Source: Gottfriedia acidiceleris (GTDB lineage: Bacteria; Bacillota; Bacilli; Bacillales; Bacillaceae_G). From it: 64,000 nucleotides of DNA. Of this stretch, positions 1,764-54,982 are shown one piece after another (position 1 is the stretch's first letter; the number at the start of each line of letters is the position of its first letter). The notes beneath the pieces were generated by a model. The model ran no database searches. It had not been told where the DNA came from and saw nothing but the letters and a program-made list of their open reading frames with translations. The DNA lies in assembly GCF_023115465.1 (NCBI RefSeq), contig NZ_CP096034.1, positions 3,348,001 through 3,412,000 on the forward strand, written 5' to 3'. The position numbers and the translations under genes are program-made.

Positions 1764-1792
1764 AAAAGCTCTTCGGATGTCGAAGAGCTTTT
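1764..1792. terminator. duplicated copy of the qox terminator hairpin
   Basis: A stem of AAAAAGCTCTTCG pairing with CGAAGAGCTTTT. It differs by about one base from the hairpin at 3311-3341. The two copies bracket the cassette between them, so this one is best read as the target duplication made on insertion. It can still act as a terminator. Confidence 0.75.
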
Positions 1793-3310
1793 ACACGCTG
1801 TTGAAAAACAATCATGTCAATTAAATTACCAAATTTTCGTAGAAGGCGTAGAGTGATGTTGAATTCCACTACAGGGTGCTCGCTTTCCATTGGGCGAGAT
1901 TCTTTAGCCTTCCCGCTTATCCCATAGGAGTCGATTCCCCCTTTCGTTTCAATCAATTTAGTCAATCAAAAAAAGTCTGCAATAAATACTAGTCAAATAG
2001 CCTTTACTTTGAGTAACCTAACTGTATTATATTAATCAGCTTGTAGCTCAATTAAATATTCAACATTAATTAAACTAAACAATTGAATTTGTTTTTAAAG
2101 GCTCTGCTAAAGTGGAAGAAGAAAAATTCAAATCGTGGTTTATTGACTACTTCAATTTTGTTACAATTATTTTTGAATTATTAACAAATTAAGATAAACA
2201 GTAGAATGAGGTAATCTAGTGACAAATTTTATGTACATATTTTGCTTAATGGTATGGGGGTTAAATTTTATTGCGGTAAAAATTCAAGGAACACCCGTCA
2301 GTTTGGAATTATCATTATCATATCGTTTAGTTATGACAGCTTTTTTATTTTTAGTTCTTGTGTGCTTCCTTAAACCCAATGGGAGACCAAGTACAAAAGA
2401 TTTACCGTTTATTATAGTTTTTGGTGTATGTAACTTTGCATTAAGTTATCTGTGCCTTTATTACGCCACAATTTTGAGCTCTGCTGCCATTGTAACTTTA
2501 ATCTTTTCGTTAAAAGTGATATTGACTCCGATTGCTCTCCGTGTTTTTTTAAAAGAGAAACTATATTTTCGCGTGTTAATTGGGGGAATTCTAGGAGTAT
2601 TTGGAGTATGTGTCCTAATCTATCCAAACTTAAATGATTTTCAAGGACTTACTGATTTAAAAGGAATCATGATTGCTTTGTTAGGTACGATTCTAACAGC
2701 AGTTGGTGATGCAAGTTCTGCAAGAAATGCTAATAGAAAGATTAACCCTATCTATTCAAATGCTATTGGTTTTACAATTGCTGGTGTTTTAATGGGGGTA
2801 ATTGTACTGTTCCAAGGAAATAAAATTATACTTCCAACAACAGTTACATATTTATCTGCTTTGCTATATTTAACATTGATTGCTTCTTTTATGGCTTGGC
2901 TATTTTATTTAAAACTTGTAGAAAAAATTGGAGGGGCAAAAAGTGGGTATATGGTAGCTCTATTCCCAGTAATTGGAGGGGTTGCTTCTGTTTTAATTGG
3001 TGAATCAACTCCATCAATTTATTTGGTAATAGGATGCCTTTCTAGCTGTATTGGAGCTGCAATTGCTTTAGGGGTTAGAATTCGAAGTCAGAATAATAAT
3101 CTTCCTGTAAATACTAATTAAGAAAAAATTTCCTTATTAAGCTAACGGGTGCGTAGTTGCATACTAGTGTTATTGGAAGAATGAAATTGCTCAAACCTAT
3201 TTATATTTAAAACCATTAAAAGATCATTCAAAAAATGCTAATTTTATCTTTATTAAATGTTCACTTAAAGTCCGTTTTCCCTATTGATGACTTTATATTT
3301 CAACAATCTG
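1793..3310. mobile_element. mobile insertion cassette: IS1182-like repeat ends around a transporter gene
   Basis: The left 300 bp (1793 to about 2100) match one end of the roughly 0.5-kb repeat seen at 54441-54949, in the same orientation. The right 145 bp (about 3163-3310) match its other end. Between them, about 65 bp of the plain repeat are replaced by about 1.06 kb holding an EamA transporter gene with its own upstream region. The ends carry TGTTGAAA in inverted orientation. The qox terminator hairpin is duplicated on both sides, so the whole unit probably moved as one. There is no transposase inside, so it would need one supplied in trans. Mobile insertion cassettes (MICs) with IS231 ends are known in the Bacillus cereus group; this one has different ends. 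The IS1182 assignment rests on the ends and the palindromic target and is an inference. Confidence 0.75.
2219..3121 (+). CDS. EamA/DMT-family transporter
   Basis: A 300-residue integral membrane protein with ten predicted hydrophobic segments arranged as two EamA repeats, typical of drug/metabolite transporters that export small metabolites or amino acids. The substrate cannot be told from sequence. The GTG start at 2219 follows GAGG with seven bases of spacing; a TTGACT-like -35 lies about 75 bases upstream. The gene is intact. It lies inside a repeat element whose two halves flank it, so it is probably a passenger gene. The terminator at 3311-3341 would end its transcript. Confidence 0.88.
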   Translation: MTNFMYIFCLMVWGLNFIAVKIQGTPVSLELSLSYRLVMTAFLFLVLVCFLKPNGRPSTKDLPFIIVFGVCNFALSYLCLYYATILSSAAIVTLIFSLKVILTPIALRVFLKEKLYFRVLIGGILGVFGVCVLIYPNLNDFQGLTDLKGIMIALLGTILTAVGDASSARNANRKINPIYSNAIGFTIAGVLMGVIVLFQGNKIILPTTVTYLSALLYLTLIASFMAWLFYLKLVEKIGGAKSGYMVALFPVIGGVASVLIGESTPSIYLVIGCLSSCIGAAIALGVRIRSQNNNLPVNTN

Positions 3311-3341
3311 AAAAAGCTCTTCGAATGTCGAAGAGCTTTTT
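3311..3341. terminator. bidirectional terminator of the qox operon and the EamA gene
   Basis: A 13-base stem (AAAAAGCTCTTCG / CGAAGAGCTTTTT) with a three-base loop and T-runs on both strands, lying five bases beyond the qoxD stop codon. It is the original site of which 1764-1792 is the duplicate. Confidence 0.85.
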
Positions 3342-3345
3342 ACTA

Positions 3346-3627
3346 TTACATACCCCAAATTAATGTCCAAAGAGTACCGAAAACAATTGCTACTGCAATA
3401 AATACTGCGTAACCTAAATTGATATATAATACTCCTTTATTTTCATTTTCATTCATATGCATGAAAACAATTAACTGAAGACCGCCTTGTAATAATGCAG
3501 TTACAATTAAAATAATAAATGATACATTAAACGGTAAATTTAAATAATAGACACTTAAAGCTATGATTGTTAGAACAAGTGATTGGATGAAGCCAACCAC
3601 TTGATGCTTAGGGAATAATGCGCTCAT
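3346..3627 (-). CDS. qoxD: cytochrome aa3 quinol oxidase subunit IV
   Basis: A small 93-residue subunit of the aa3-600-type menaquinol oxidase with three membrane helices, in the COX4-like/CyoD family. It supports assembly or stability of the CuB site region in related oxidases and has no cofactor of its own. It is the last gene of qoxABCD; its start overlaps the qoxC stop by four bases, showing translational coupling. The motif FMHMNENENKG between helices is typical of the family. The operon terminator follows directly. Confidence 0.95.
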   Translation of the reverse strand: MSALFPKHQVVGFIQSLVLTIIALSVYYLNLPFNVSFIILIVTALLQGGLQLIVFMHMNENENKGVLYINLGYAVFIAVAIVFGTLWTLIWGM

Positions 3628-14244: not shown

Positions 14245-14270
14245 AAAAAGCTTGTAAAAACAAGCTTTTA
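14245..14270. terminator. first copy of a duplicated hairpin
   Basis: AAAAGCTTG pairs with CAAGCTTTT around a five-base loop. Related copies lie at 14786-14811 and 15257-15281, one between and one after the two repeat elements, so these are best read as target duplications. Confidence 0.6.
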
Positions 14271-14785
14271 GAGTGTTGAAATATAAAGTCGTCAATAGGG
14301 AAAACGGACTTTAAATGAACATTTAATATTGATAAAATTAGCATTTTTCGAATGATCTTTTAATGGTTATAAATGTTAATATGTTTGAGCAATTTCATTA
14401 TTTCAATAACACTAGTAATGATTTTTTTAGAAGTTAAAAATATTATGGGCTATTTTTAGGAAACAAATTTTATAGTTTTGTTTAATAATTGTTCGATATT
14501 AATTGATAAACAAGCTGATTAATATACAACAGTTAGATTACTCTAAGTAAAGGCTATTTGACTAGTATTTATTACAGACTTTTTTGATTGAATAAGTTGA
14601 TTGGAACGAAAGGGGTGATCGACTCCTATGGGATTAGCGGGAAGGCTAAGACCCCGCAGGCTCGCCGAGGAGGCTAAAGAATCTCGCCCCATGGAAAGCG
14701 AGCACCATGTAGTGGAAATCAACATCACTCTACTCCTTTTACGAAAATTTGATAATTAATTGACAAGGTAGTTTTTCAACAGCAT
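14271..14785. mobile_element. IS1182-like non-autonomous repeat, copy A
   Basis: A complete copy of the roughly 0.5-kb repeat, running from GAGTGTTGAAA to TTTTTCAACAGC. It has an A/T-rich left two-thirds and a GC-rich structured core at about 14600-14730. There is no transposase gene; the short reading frames in the core recur in other copies and are not genes. The same family lies in inverted orientation at 54441-54949. Confidence 0.8.
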
Positions 14786-14811
14786 GAAAAACTTGTAAAA
14801 ACAAACTTTTA
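14786..14811. repeat. second copy of the duplicated hairpin
   Basis: GAAAAACTTGTAAAAACAAACTTTTAG is a near-copy of 14245-14270 lying between two repeat elements, as expected if each insertion duplicated its target. Confidence 0.6.
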
Positions 14812-36900: not shown

Positions 36901-38112
36901 TGCCCCAGGTGCACCTAAAGTGTACATTCGATCTCCAGCATTTCCCGCTGCTACAACTGCTGTGACACCTGAAATTACAGCATTATTTAATGCAAGACTT
37001 TCGATATTCAATGGATCATTGGAGTTACTTCCTAATGATAAGTTGATGACATCCATTCCGTCTGCTACAGACTTATCAATGCCTGCTAAAACATTTGCAG
37101 TAGTACCGGAGCCATATTGTCCTAGTACACGATAAACATATAAATCAGCGTCTGGTGCAACACCAGTTACCGCGTAATCCGTATTATTTTTTCCTCGCCC
37201 AGCGATAATTCCAGATACATGTGTCCCGTGCTCTGTGTAAAAAGTTGCTCCACTAAGACTTGTTTCTGCAAGACCAGATTTTTTCCAATCGTAATATGTT
37301 GTTTCCATTGGGTCTGCATCATTATCGACAAAGTCCCAGCCTTTTACTGAGTTCGGATTGATTGATTTTGGATCTACTCCAGTTTGTGCACGATAGCCTT
37401 TATAAGCATCTGTTAAATCTGGATGATTATAGTCAATACCAGTATCGATTACCCCTACTTTGATTCCTTTTCCAGTTAGTCCTTCATCATGAAGTTTATT
37501 AATACCTGGGAATACTTCAGTTGCTACCTTGCTTGTATCTTGTGTACCTTCTGTAGCTTTAGGCGGTTCTACTTGAATAACATTATTTGGCCACACAGCT
37601 TTAACTGCTTTCGATTTTAATAATGACTTTACTTTATTTGCAGGAAGTTCCATCGAAACTCCATTTAAAGAGCTTGTATATGTACGTTTAATTTTATAAA
37701 CGTTTTTATTCTCTTTTAAGTCATCTTTATAAATTGTTTGTAAATCATTTTTAAATGTTTCTTGAGCCGCATCTGCTTTTTGCTCCGCATCTGAAAGTGA
37801 TAAACTATTTCCGTTCGCTGCTTCTTCAATTACTGCAACTTTTGCAGGCTTGTCCTTTAATTCAACAATTACTGATAGATTTTTAGAACTCTCTAAATCT
37901 ACCGAAGAAGGTAACTGTAATCCTTCTTGACTAGTAGCCTCCAATTTGTTTAAAGCTTGGCGTTGCTCAGGTGTAAGTTTAGACAGTACTTCTTCAATAG
38001 AAGATGGCGCTGCAGCCTTTACTAAAGGTGTATGATGTTTAACTGGAAATGAGCTCAAAATAACACCAGTACTTAAAGTTAAAATTGCTGTACTCTTAAT
38101 CAAACGATTCAT
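33958..38112 (-). CDS. secreted S8 subtilase (Vpr-like) with C-terminal dockerin module
   Basis: A 1384-residue secreted serine protease. A signal peptide spans about residues 1-34 and an I9 inhibitor propeptide about 78-185. The catalytic domain has Asp223 (VIDTGIDYNHPDL), His295 (HGTHVSG) and Ser619 (GTSMATPNVAG), with a PA insert near 440-555. Beta-sandwich regions follow, then two calcium-loop repeats (DVNKDDVIDVMD and DINFDGTVDAKD) forming a type I dockerin at about 1304-1355. The layout up to the beta-sandwich region is that of minor extracellular protease Vpr; the dockerin is an addition. A close paralogue lies at 50270-54400. No cohesin gene is present in the window. Confidence 0.92.
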   Translation of the reverse strand: MNRLIKSTAILTLSTGVILSSFPVKHHTPLVKAAAPSSIEEVLSKLTPEQRQALNKLEATSQEGLQLPSSVDLESSKNLSVIVELKDKPAKVAVIEEAANGNSLSLSDAEQKADAAQETFKNDLQTIYKDDLKENKNVYKIKRTYTSSLNGVSMELPANKVKSLLKSKAVKAVWPNNVIQVEPPKATEGTQDTSKVATEVFPGINKLHDEGLTGKGIKVGVIDTGIDYNHPDLTDAYKGYRAQTGVDPKSINPNSVKGWDFVDNDADPMETTYYDWKKSGLAETSLSGATFYTEHGTHVSGIIAGRGKNNTDYAVTGVAPDADLYVYRVLGQYGSGTTANVLAGIDKSVADGMDVINLSLGSNSNDPLNIESLALNNAVISGVTAVVAAGNAGDRMYTLGAPGASALAITVGANDTKTEIATSKGTLHGTTDVATDLKLLGKGFGDNVDSLKGRNLQIVKVPNTGADADYKSIDVNGKIALVNRGTVSLVDKIKFAKNHGAVAVIITNNVANEGFIPTYLGASYGLVPTFTMSFEQANAITSKLGANPTFSFDEMGKITDAGSKIASFSSRGPARITYDIKPEVTAPGVAVFSTVPSYMHGADQNGNYQYAYDNLSGTSMATPNVAGVAALLLQANPNLTPAEIKETLMNTADPLNGDYSVFESGAGQVDPYEAIHSKTRIEVVDETKGISDKKGNLKTVNDLTGAVAFGVFTPAGQNISDQCSLNIYNNSNQAKTYDVTVTFQKDRRGSLDADANGVMIVTDKSIKVGANSKKKSTVAISVPKSAKLGIYEGFVTYTNHDNPEETFQVPFGIKTVEEGMGPVTMSPQAFTQVFDSAYSGQLLYTNANMSIKSHMRTLDVVLEDGKTGKDIGFIGTMDGLGMDENISYGISKIFNGYYYKFTGDEDQPIAYDTDLAKPGYYKLKIIGTNDAGKQFTSEGDFYFDNTAPKMTVNSPDVLEYKNGQSSVTITGSVYDKETEEMQKLGMNFNQGSTKLYYQDQLGGRAIAVPVNPDGTFTATIPTNPTRAMLLSFYAWDAASNKTFKEGREIFVVRDDVTYGYMQPEKRIAKTGETVHATLNLNKANDVKQAVYKFYHYSDVATMNINPTPNFTDKVNVKVEDKVWSGNLNEATVTITTKDGVAPLNGDLKLADIAFKMGTEYTPQPDIWSGYMSSVTVTDTNNITKAVSSGNPSIFFTEPTFSMFRGSNRAEAFLDPNGAATQTINYSKLGVSVKATNSNGTVYNGKIDASSVFQIQNLPLTDDQYELELDFPGHFTVHKDFTIGFHEDGKVVNQNLYYKLNPAIAGDVNKDDVIDVMDAIYIQTYWGTNKRAADINFDGTVDAKDMAFVEKNYLMQNPTIKYVPTPIKKYKSQTLETVKSALGIQ

Positions 38113-39531: not shown

Positions 39532-39733
39532 AAGCTTTCCTCTCCATACTTGGTAAAAATCTTTCAATTCATCGTTTCCGCCAATTTATCTAGATAAAAA
39601 AATGGACATTTAGGTAATATTGCACGTGGTCTATTAGGTTAATTATACTATTTTGTCGTTTTTTTAAAATAGGAAATATTCAATTAGTTAATTAAATTTA
39701 ATTAATTAAATCAATACTGTTTCATTATTTATT
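39532..39733. other. promoter region of the HTH-TPR gene and repeat target site
   Basis: A/T-rich DNA. The 21-base AATACTGTTTCATTATTTATT at its end (39713-39733) recurs at 40252-40272 on the far side of repeat copy C, so it is that element's target duplication. Confidence 0.6.
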
Positions 39734-40251
39734 CAGAGTGTTGAATGAATTTTAAAATCCTCAATAGGGAAAACGGACTTTAAGTGAACATTAGATAATG
39801 ATAAGGTTAGCATTTTTGAATAATCTTTTTAATGGTTTTAAATGTTAATATGCTTGGGCAATTTCATTATTTCAATAGAAATGATTTTTTTAGAAGTTAA
39901 AAATATTATGAGCTTTTTTAGAAAACAAATTGGATTGTTTAGTTTAATAACTGTTCAATATTAATTATCTACAATCTTATTAAGATACAACAGTTAGATT
40001 ACTCTAAGGAAAGGCTATTTGATTAGGGTTTATCGCAGACATTTTTAGATGAAACAAATTGATTGGAATGGAGGGATGCTCGACTCCTATGGGATAAGCG
40101 GGAAGGCTGAGACCCCGCAGGCTTGCCGAGGAGGCTAAAGAATCTCGCCCCATGGAAAGCGAGCATCCTGTAATGGAAATCAACATCACTCTACTCCTTT
40201 TACGAAAATTTGATAATTAATTGACAAGGTAATTTTTCAACAGCATGAATA
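39734..40251. mobile_element. IS1182-like non-autonomous repeat, copy C
   Basis: A complete copy from CAGAGTGTTGAA to TTTTTCAACAGCATG with no coding capacity. A 21-base direct repeat flanks it exactly. The right copy lies within a short palindrome (AATAAAT/ATTTATT), again a foldback target. The GC-rich core (about 40059-40183) can fold: GGATGCTCG at 40074-40082 pairs with CGAGCATCC at 40160-40168, and TTGATT at 40059 pairs with AATCAA at 40178. Confidence 0.85.
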
Positions 40252-50269: not shown

Positions 50270-53200
50270 TTGAAAAGCAATTTTATAGTGCCACTCAAAG
50301 TTGTTTCTACTAGTTTTATAGCAGCTAGTTTGCTATTTTCTAGTCACACTTTTGCTTCAGTTGGTTCAATTTCACAAGGTGACATTTATAACGTAGAAGA
50401 TTATTTAAAAAATTTATCAAAAGAGGATCGTAACCGAGTACATAACAGTGTTGATTCGTCAGATAAAGAAAAATATTTATCACCTAACCTTAATACAACA
50501 AGTAATAATCCTGTAAACATCATTGTTCAATTCGCACAAGATCCTGCTAAAACGGAAGTTAAGAATAACGAAGAAAACGGAATTGAAGTCTCTTTAGACG
50601 ATGCAAAAAATAAAGTGGAAAAATCTCATCAAACTTTTAAAAATAAAATTAGACAAGAAAAAAAGGACTTGTCAGCTATTCAAATTCGTAAAGAGTACCG
50701 TCAAGCATTCAATGGTGTTGCGATGACTGTACCGGCAAATGAAGTACATACTATTCTTGCGATGGATGAAGTAAAAGCAGTGATTGAAGATAAAGTAATC
50801 AAGATTGATTCATCTCCTTCAGAGGTTCAAAAAACTGAGTCAGGTAGTCTTTCCCCTGCAGTAGATAGTACTGAAAATATCGGTGCAACAAAACTCCATG
50901 AAGAAGGTATTACTGGTAAAGGCGTAAAAGTTGCTGTAATTGATACTGGAATTGATTATAATCATCCAGATTTAAAAGATATTTATAAAGGCGGATACGA
51001 TTTTGTGAATAACGATTCCGATCCAATGGAAACAACTTACGACGATTGGAAAAAATCAGCACAACCTGAAATCAGTCCATTTGGTGGCTCAACTTACTAC
51101 ACTTTCCATGGAACTCATGTATCAGGAACGATTGCAGGACAAGGTAAGAATAAAACAGATTATGCAGTTACTGGTGTTGCACCTGGAGTTGAATTATATG
51201 CGTATAAAGTGCTTGGCCCATACGGTTCAGGCTACACTAGTAATATTATCGCTGGCATTGACAAAGCAGTAGCAGACGGAATGGATGTTATTAATCTATC
51301 ACTTGGATCTGATCATAATGACCCCCTTGATCCAAATTCGATTGCAATCAATAATGCTACATTGGCTGGTACGACAGCAGTAATTTCAGCTGGAAATTCA
51401 GGAAGTGACCTATATTCACTTGGTTCACCTGGAACTTCTCCGCTTGCTATTACAGTTGGAGCGAGTGATTTTTCAATGACAATCCCTACAGCTATTGGTA
51501 CGGTTAGTTCGAATGATACTCTTCTATCGTTAACAAATTTAAAACTACTTGCAAAGAGCTATGATGATGACATAAATACTTTTAAAAACCAATCTCTTCC
51601 AATCGTATTTGTTGGCCTAGGAAATAGTGAAAGTGATTATAGTGGCAAAGATGTTAATGGAAAAATTGCTCTAATCGAACGTGGAGTCCTTAGCTTAAAT
51701 GAAAAAGTAATACTTGCAAAGAAACACGGTGCAAAAGCAGTAATAATGTATAATAATAACCCGACAGAAGGTCAAATTCCTCATTATCTTGGAAACGGCT
51801 TTGACTTTATCCCTTCATTTTCACTTACAAATGAAGATGGACTAAAAGTTGTAAATCGAGTAAAACAAGGAAATGCTACATTTACTTTAAACTCAATTGG
51901 AGAAATGAAAACTGGTGGGGATACATTAGCTGATTTTAGTTCACGTGGTCCTTCTAACAGATTTTATGATATTAAACCAGAAGTGACTGCACCAGGAGTT
52001 GCTGTATTCTCAAGCGTACCAGCTTATGTAAACGGAGCAGAGCATTTAACTGATTATAAGAATGCATATATGAGTGCATCAGGTACATCAATGGCTTCTC
52101 CACACGTTGCTGGAGCTGCTGCCCTTCTTCTACAAGAACATCCAGAATACAAACCTGAAGATGTTAAAGCAGCTTTAATGAATACCGCGGATAAGCTGAA
52201 AAAAGATTACAGTGTATTTGAAGTCGGTGCTGGAAGAATTGATGTATATGAAGCAGCGCATTCTGACGTGCGTATTAAAGTACTAGATCATGCAATTACC
52301 ACAAAAGATGGAAAAGATATACCAATACCAGATGTTACAGGTGCATTAAGCTTTGGGCCTCAAGTAACTGCAGGTAAAGCAAAAACAGATTCACGAGTGG
52401 TTTCTATAACAAACAATAGTAACAATAAGAAAACATTTAAGCTAGAAATTAAATTTAATAAAAATGTAAAAGGTTCTAAAGATGCTTCAACTAACAATAT
52501 TTCACTAGATGTTCCTTCTACCGTTACAGTTAATGCAAACAAAACGGTAAAAATTAATCCTATGATTCATATCCCTGCATCTGCTGAATTCGGTAACTAC
52601 GAGGGATATGTTTATATTACAAACAATAGTAATCCTGATGAAGTTTATCAATTACCATTTGGCTTCAAGCATTTAGCTGAAGGTATTAATAAAATTAACG
52701 CATTTGAAGATGCATTTACAACACGACGTGATTTAAATAATAGTTTCCCATACGGAACAGGTATTGAATTTGCATTAAATAGTTCAATGGAAACAGTAGA
52801 TTTTGTATTAAAAGATGCAAAAACTGGACAAGCGCTGGGCCTTTTTGATGCATTTGAAGGACTTTTCACTGAGGACATACCTTTTGTAGTTGAATCCCCG
52901 TTTAATGGATTATATTTTCCTTTTACTGAACATAAGGATCATCCAATAGCTTATTCAAAAAAGCTTGCTCCTCCAGGAAAATATGAACTAGAACTAATCG
53001 CTACTAACAGAGAAGGTAAAACATTTAAAAAGTCTGATACATTTTTCATTGAAAATACGAACCCTGTTGTTAAAATGCAACAACCAGGTGGAGTATACGA
53101 AGTTACTGAAGATGGTATGACTGTAAAAGGAAATATTTATGATGAGCAAGTAGCCATTATGAATCAGAACGGTTTTTACTGGGATCAGTCATCTAATATG

Positions 53201-54406: not shown

Positions 54407-54440
54407 GAAAAAACGTCGGATTTTTATATCCGACGTTTTT
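54407..54440. terminator. terminator of the second subtilase gene (duplicated copy)
   Basis: AAAAAACGTCGGA pairs with TCCGACGTTTTT. The 34-base stretch is repeated at 54949-54982 with two mismatches, bracketing repeat copy E. Confidence 0.9.
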
Positions 54441-54949
54441 ACATGCTGTTGAAAAACTACCTTGTCAATTAATTATCAAATTTTCGTGAAAGGAGTAGAG
54501 TGATGTTGATTTCCATTACAGGATGCTCGCTTTCCATGGGGCGAGATTCTTTAGCCTCCTCGGCAAGCCTGTGGGGTCTCAGCCTTCCCGCTTATCCCAT
54601 AGGAGTCGAGCATCCCTCCATTCCAATCAACTTATTCATCTAAAAATGTCTGCGATAAACCCTAATCAAATAGCCTTTCCTTAGAGTAATCTAACTTTAA
54701 TCAGATTGTAGATCAATTAATATTGAACATTTATTAAACTAAACAATCGAATTTGTTTTCTAAAAAAAGCTTATAATATTTTTAACGTCTAAAAAAATCA
54801 ATTCTATTGTTATTGAAATAATAAAATTGCTCAAACATATTAACATTTAAAATCATTAAAAAATCATTCAAAGAATGCTAATTTTATCATTATAAATGTT
54901 CATTTAAAGTCCGTTTTCCCTATTGACGTCTTTATATTTCAACACTCTG
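54441..54949. mobile_element. IS1182-like non-autonomous repeat, copy E (inverted orientation)
   Basis: A full copy read from ACATGCTGTTGAAAAAC to TATATTTCAACACTCT, opposite in orientation to copies A-C. It is inserted beside or into the terminator between the subtilase and the alpha/beta hydrolase, with that hairpin duplicated on both sides. The core is very close to copy C, indicating recent movement or sequence homogenisation. No coding sequence. Confidence 0.85.
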
Positions 54950-54982
54950 AAAAAACGTCGGGCTTTTATATCCGACGTTTTT
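54949..54982. terminator. terminator of the alpha/beta hydrolase gene (second hairpin copy)
   Basis: AAAAAACGTCGGG pairs with TCCGACGTTTTT, 18 bases past the minus-strand hydrolase stop codon. It is the twin of 54407-54440. Confidence 0.88.

Follow-up and report, generated by a model that had tools for sequence, protein, structure and literature searches.

The EamA-family transporter gene behind the qox operon of Gottfriedia acidiceleris is probably the product of two nested systems, in which a relative of the IS1182-family insertion elements inserted into the qox terminator and a foreign EamA gene cassette from integron-like arrays came to lie inside it. The arrays themselves are a more surprising result than the EamA unit. 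The window, meaning the whole stretch of DNA analyzed here, comprises 64,000 nucleotides (G000:C1:3348001-3412000) of the 4.69-Mb G. acidiceleris genome, which is assembled as a single contig.

In the favored explanation, an element of about 510 bp would have inserted into the terminator behind qox with duplication of the hairpin, as at its other sites; the comparison with empty sites establishes the insertion at qox, and we infer that it was a transposition. An EamA cassette of about 1.05 kb, belonging to an integron-like array system of the Bacillales and acquired from outside the genus, would have replaced about 36 bp of the element interior, where the junctions can be read directly and a recombination event is presumed to lie behind them. 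This entry may have been an illegitimate recombination, because the cassette has lost the terminator and the right arm of its downstream repeat. The cassette most likely entered an element copy that was already at qox, the order of events being the weakest step of the explanation. Cassette joining in the donor genera is probably the work of a Xer-like tyrosine recombinase acting near the point marked by the vertical bar in AACTAACGGGGCAG|NTTAGTT, as suggested by the array structure, the boundaries of some shared cassettes, and the proximity of the recombinase gene.

Anatomy of the interrupted element

The unit is flanked by the peroxidase gene katG and the qox operon, both on the minus strand (the name qox follows the preliminary description and the open reading frames). 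Window positions 1794 to 3310 represent one copy of the dispersed ~510-bp element, which is interrupted by an EamA gene of 300 amino acids. The preliminary description, made from the sequence alone, had proposed two repeat halves about 1.06 kb apart around an intact transporter gene, bracketed by near-identical copies of the qox terminator hairpin, and both points are borne out. The left half (1794 to 2099, plus strand) reaches position 328 of the canonical copy, with 77.6% identity between window 1789-2099 and canonical 1-328, and the right half (3160 to 3310, plus strand) runs from canonical position 365 to the end, with 89.0% identity between window 3161-3315 and canonical 365-518. The halves are separated by 1,061 bp, and the canonical positions 329 to 364 (36 bp) are absent.

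The passenger cassette between the halves (2107 to 3159, plus strand, edges set by eye to within a few nucleotides) carries truncated cassette-repeat arms at its edges. Its intact gene (2219 to 3121, plus strand, GTG start) encodes the EamA/DMT-family transporter (Pfam ID PF00892, E value 3.7e-29) and is followed by the left arm of a cassette repeat (CTTATTAAGCTAACGGGTGC, 3133 to 3152, plus strand), which lacks the terminator and right arm of that repeat. The left hairpin copy (1763 to 1793) and the right one (3311 to 3341, immediately after the stop codon of qoxD at 3346-3627 on the minus strand), neither assigned to a strand, are identical at 29 of 30 positions (1763-1792 versus 3311-3340), and the duplicated terminator represents the target duplication.

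Further copies of the element lie in the window, two of them without a passenger on the minus strand (14266 to 14791 and 39728 to 40247) and one on the plus strand that serves as the canonical reference (54437 to 54960). An Rfam scan at gathering thresholds gave no match in the window. Two inverted, diverged arms (37013-37497 and 50891-51324, 70 to 82%), situated about 13 to 14 kb apart, are probably paralogous genes.

Copies and target duplications of the dispersed element

The canonical copy has at least 45 matches in its own genome (40 of 190 candidates scored). The element begins with CATGCTGTTGAAAAAC... and ends with ...TTTCAACACTCTG, and with up to three mismatches these patterns occur 50 times (left) and 45 times (right) in the genome, the reversed patterns not at all. 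In the own-genome DNA examined, 43 left/right pairings have their ends within 2.6 kb of each other and correspond to 41 distinct both-ended copies. Exact flanking repeats of at least 12 nt are present at all 41 copies (range 12 to 35 nt; median 21 nt over the 43 pairings). At least 12 identical flanking nucleotides were found in 41 of the 43 pairings versus 3 of 1,806 mismatched left/right controls, and the two failing pairings share a right end already used in another pair; the flanking repeats are beyond chance. A stem of at least 6 bp lies inside the exact duplicate itself in 24 of the 41 copies, and in others the hairpin duplicates have diverged, as judged by eye.

A right end within 10 kb was found for 38 of the 50 left ends at up to three mismatches, mostly at a spacing of 235 to 475 bp. 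Larger spacings reflect a short insert (612 to 664 bp, two pairs), an IS1182 copy inside (2,152 to 2,174 bp, four pairs), a second left end sharing one right end (1,652 bp, one pair), and the EamA unit (1,469 bp, one pair). Four of the 12 left ends without a right end at this threshold were paired by BLAST. The ends are common to an IS1182-type transposase element, including the left/right asymmetry, and the ~510-bp element is a non-autonomous relative of the IS1182 family.

The gap between the peroxidase gene and qoxD can be aligned in most of the 12 congeners compared. The single-hairpin empty sites behind qoxD that the preliminary description had proposed to look for are present in six of them (G010, G003, G005, G002, G008, and G011, each with one 31-bp hairpin), and at the empty site L067 both flanks of the unit overlap in one 31-nt hairpin (L067:1463-1493). 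In three congeners (G007, G006, and G012), an oppositely oriented element copy lies between two hairpins, and in the remaining three (G001, G009, and G004) the hairpin was not recognized. An empty element in the orientation of the EamA unit was not seen at qox among the relatives, their copies being opposite. The opposite orientation at the same hairpin suggests that the terminator was probably hit at least twice.

Candidate transposases

A profile search of the G. acidiceleris genome with PF13751, whose members we take to be IS1182-family proteins, gave seven places, namely six intact transposases of 496 amino acids and one degenerate copy, and no transposase with the ends of the element. All six intact copies (G000:C1 near 181008, 1742905, 1860114, 1957752, 4086485, and 4267938) are nested in the element, always at the same internal site of a copy and in either orientation, and their ends (GAGGCCACTGAAAAA) are unlike those of the element. 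We discarded them as the mobilizer on account of these ends and their nested position; likewise, the 1.7-kb inserts do not make a full-length element with its own transposase, being present in both orientations with ends of their own. Here, one mobile element uses another as a landing pad. Three element copies carry an insert of 145 to 178 bp at the same internal site (L033:5844-6022, L035:3441-3586, and L039:3134-3312), which perhaps represents short derivatives of another IS1182-type element.

PF13751 matched in 9 of the 13 genomes of the genus, including that of G. acidiceleris. The preliminary description had expected an IS1182-type transposase with matching ends in the same genome; none was found there by PF13751, and similar ends do occur in two congeners, around an intact transposase of 492 amino acids in G011 (L175) and an interrupted one in G002 (L176). 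The L175 ends are identical to those of the ~510-bp element at 22 of 27 positions on the left and 21 of 27 on the right, and this transposase element sits between identical hairpins, the L176 copy being flanked by two different ones. The best local match between the G011 transposase and that of G. acidiceleris is 19% over 161 amino acids, a distant likeness.

The passenger and its relatives

Among the named genomes, a close relative of the passenger is located in Neobacillus pocheonensis, where L118:5888-6934 matches window 2111-3152 at 98.0% identity over 1,047 bp and the EamA protein is 98% identical. The 12.9-kb N. pocheonensis locus has no match to the ~510-bp element. Bacillus sp. ISL-34, P. 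alkalitolerans, and C. oceanisediminis show 84 to 88% identity from about window position 2155 to 3150, and in the fetched DNA of all four loci element matches are absent. Among 23 named EamA loci, an element match was found only at Gottfriedia endophytica. Close EamA orthologs were found in eight relatives (60 genomes searched, G. acidiceleris included), with identities of 77 to 79% in seven congeners and 64% in G017; all of these genes are located elsewhere, and none has both element halves in the fetched flanks. By GC content the passenger is no outlier (32.5% versus 32.6%). This distribution, with relatives in other genera that lack the element ends, points to a foreign gene cassette that would have been acquired from outside the genus.

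At both edges, the similarity to N. pocheonensis stops within the arms of a short repeat distinct from the element; the left cassette-repeat arm reads TTTAGTGGAAG in N. pocheonensis and TAAAGTGGAAG in the window, and the right-hand arm is CTTATTAAGCTAACGGGTGC. In the window, about seven further nucleotides resemble the arm before the element resumes; the terminator and right arm of the downstream repeat are gone together with 36 bp of the element. The junction is not clean, and a few nucleotides at the left edge match neither part. A relative of the EamA gene (88% identical amino acids) is encoded on plasmid pA of Peribacillus sp. R9-11 with the repeat about 150 bp upstream, which makes plasmids one possible route for the cassette.

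Two side observations concern the relatives. The P. alkalitolerans contig with the EamA cassette (L120) shows, by eye, an apparent group II intron 3' end (L120:1-100) within the repeat upstream of EamA. In G. endophytica, a degenerate element core (L046:2406-2551) starts at most 5 bp from the stop codon of the EamA ortholog.

The preliminary description took the unit for a mobile insertion cassette, for which EamA would have been captured elsewhere and the whole 1.5-kb unit transposed in trans to qox, a course of events that we consider conceivable but rather improbable. The architecture stands, with a passenger, IS-type ends, a target duplication, and no transposase; both ends and the 29/30 hairpin duplication enclose the whole unit, and the genus does have an IS1182-family transposase flanked by similar ends. 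However, entry of the cassette into a resident copy would leave the same duplication and ends, and the PF13751 search found no transposase with these ends in the same genome. A second locus did not emerge either: the genome showed no further close EamA copy, the 38 left ends (of 50) that have a partner include no other such unit, and neither the 8 close orthologs (59 relatives searched) nor the EamA genes at the 23 named loci are enclosed by both element halves. Besides the IS1182-bearing copies, the EamA unit is, by the spacings, the one gene-carrying copy among these paired ends. That transporter genes are spread by a resident transposase, as the preliminary description suggested, finds no support here, as the ends of the IS1182 copies in the genome differ and the passenger occurs in other genera without element ends.

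Cassette arrays in the donor genera

Neobacillus, Peribacillus, and Cytobacillus genomes contain arrays of co-oriented, mostly one-gene cassettes that are punctuated by the repeat. With up to two mismatches, the repeat pattern has 39, 110, 45, 41, and 49 occurrences in five donor-type genomes and none in G. acidiceleris, the reversed control giving 0 to 1 per genome. At up to one mismatch, it is present in 119 of the 397 genomes examined from the order, representing 57 of 135 genera, versus 3 of 397 genomes for the reversed pattern (read off the table), and in none of the 12 sampled Gottfriedia genomes; G. acidiceleris likewise has none.

The arrays were compared in 16 stretches, comprising 14 that were mostly picked for repeat clustering and two from the EamA search. 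Within 2.5 kb, 89 of 93 neighboring repeats share their orientation, and the median spacing is 714 bp (88 of 89 intervals, one with unread bases being excluded). An open reading frame of at least 60 amino acids is found in 67 of the 88 intervals, the longest one following the repeat direction in 57 of the 67. Ten cassette proteins were scanned against Pfam: two have no match, two match only below the cut-off (SUKH-like and polyketide-cyclase-like), and the others are two GNAT acetyltransferases, a glyoxalase-family protein, an AAA-domain protein, a RibD_C protein, and an alpha/beta hydrolase. Some cassettes recur in other arrays or genera with the homology ending near repeats; for example, P. 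alkalitolerans G062C72:27079-27632 is 88% identical to C. oceanisediminis G063C4:9760-9206 (script coordinates), with the match bounded 5 bp past one repeat point and 61 bp short of the next. At many other segments common to different arrays, no repeat was recognized at the ends.

The consensus of 139 repeats is TTTTcTTaTT.AACTAAcGGGGCAG|gTTAGTT.AA.AAG, with the left arm recognized in just 39 of them. The local stem has a median of 9 of 14 pairs versus 4 in controls, and a hairpin with a T-run was detected in 31 of the 139 repeats versus 79 of 694 random windows, about a twofold excess by a strict but crude scan. Single-strand DNA folding was dropped as a criterion, having given a stable fold for one repeat (z values of -3.2 and -3.9) and a weaker one for another (-1.9 and -1.8).

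A tyrosine recombinase of about 280 to 305 amino acids (Pfam ID PF00589) is encoded in or beside the arrays and ranks as XerA/XerD/XerC-like among NCBIfam profiles, the best being the XerA-like NF040815 with 211 and 214 bits, just below the cut-off of 220. The IntI-type integrase profile TIGR02249 gave 87 and 104 bits against a cut-off of 265. The consensus boxes of attC sites are R' GTTRRRY and R'' RYYYAAC; among the 139 array repeats, R' was found in 1 and R'' in 8, and we rejected the repeats as classical attC sites on this ground. The arrays share with integrons the co-oriented, mostly single-gene cassettes. Because attC boxes and IntI were tested with these outcomes, we do not class the arrays as integrons, although they would be integron-like in working.

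At an E value of at most 1e-60, the recombinase is found in 84 of 397 genomes and has no match in G. acidiceleris. It is present in 14 of 22 genomes with at least four repeats versus 70 of 375 others (Fisher 1e-5, ignoring kinship), so that 70 of the 84 positive genomes have fewer than four repeats; of the 10 genomes richest in repeats, 3 have no match at this threshold. Matches without the repeat include 8 of the 12 sampled Gottfriedia genomes, some of them broken or partial. At 9 of the 12 best recombinase loci, one end of the gene has a repeat arm within 130 bp, compared with 10 of 240 shuffles.

The repeats might instead be mere dispersed intergenic terminators of the REP/BOX-like kind, the shared segments being due to homologous recombination and EamA having arrived by transformation or on a plasmid. 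The enrichment of hairpins with T-runs fits this, as does the fact that repeat and recombinase are often found apart, but the common orientation at a spacing of about one gene, the cassette shared by Peribacillus and Cytobacillus arrays, and the repeat arms beside the recombinase gene make it unlikely. It is highly improbable that the unit is a composite formed by homologous recombination between two element copies once flanking a chromosomal EamA gene, as the element core next to EamA in G. endophytica could hint, since the two halves in the window complement each other as a single copy, not two, and the EamA orthologs of the seven congeners are far less similar than that of N. pocheonensis.

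For the array system itself, we see about even chances that the Bacillales have a widespread integron-like system of their own, in which a Xer-like tyrosine recombinase joins cassettes at AACTAACGGGGCAG|NTTAGTT; such a system would differ from attC/IntI and would spread genes between genera. The window would then show a cassette escaped into a terminator-duplicating IS1182-type element, the two together acting as a two-tier vehicle that could deliver genes to terminators.

Relation to known systems

Mobile insertion cassettes such as MIC231 of the Bacillus cereus group and mic-qnrD likewise have a passenger between IS-type ends, no transposase, and a target duplication, according to the pertinent passages of PMC3913671. 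The EamA unit differs from them in its IS1182-type ends, in the duplication of a whole terminator hairpin, in a passenger that would itself be a foreign cassette of another system, and in being known from one locus, its movement as a unit being conjectural.

The IS1182-family elements IS1272 and TnSha1 have ends aimed at hairpins, several of which are terminators, without a primary sequence consensus; one target was hit in both orientations, and the metabolic gene sh-fabI was moved, as stated in the parts of PMC4923244 and PMC5678879 dealing with them. The EamA unit is similar in having IS1182-type ends at a terminator hairpin and a qox target used in both orientations. In those same parts, IS1272 deletes or replaces the hairpin without target duplication, whereas here the hairpin is duplicated, and TnSha1 carries its IS, whereas the EamA unit lacks a transposase. 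Hairpin duplication appears as the drawn branch 3b-6b in the legend of the IS1272 model (PMC5678879). The IS1182-type element would thus be a natural case of whole-hairpin duplication, seen elsewhere, as far as these parts of the literature go, just as that drawn branch, and the terminator duplication suggests how genes could land between operons without breaking them.

The donor arrays resemble integrons and CALIN, as portrayed in the relevant passages of PMC9024848, in their co-oriented, mostly single-gene cassettes, recombination-like sites, distant hosts, and a nearby tyrosine recombinase; unlike these, their repeats lack the R'/R'' boxes and their recombinase is XerA/C/D-like rather than IntI. 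The same passages describe complete integrons and CALIN as extremely rare in Firmicutes, and in its matching passage PMC11089894 merely names Bacillales among the sampled orders. Among the matches listed in a search of open-licence PMC articles, without bioRxiv, there was no report of such arrays in Bacillus relatives. If actively recombined, the arrays would be an overlooked platform for gene exchange in a large group of environmental Bacillus relatives. Inside the arrays, we noticed by eye IS110-like transposase genes (G062:C72:74942-76237 and G062:C60:104840-105985, stretches that are 94% identical), which recall the IS1111 elements that sit in attC sites.
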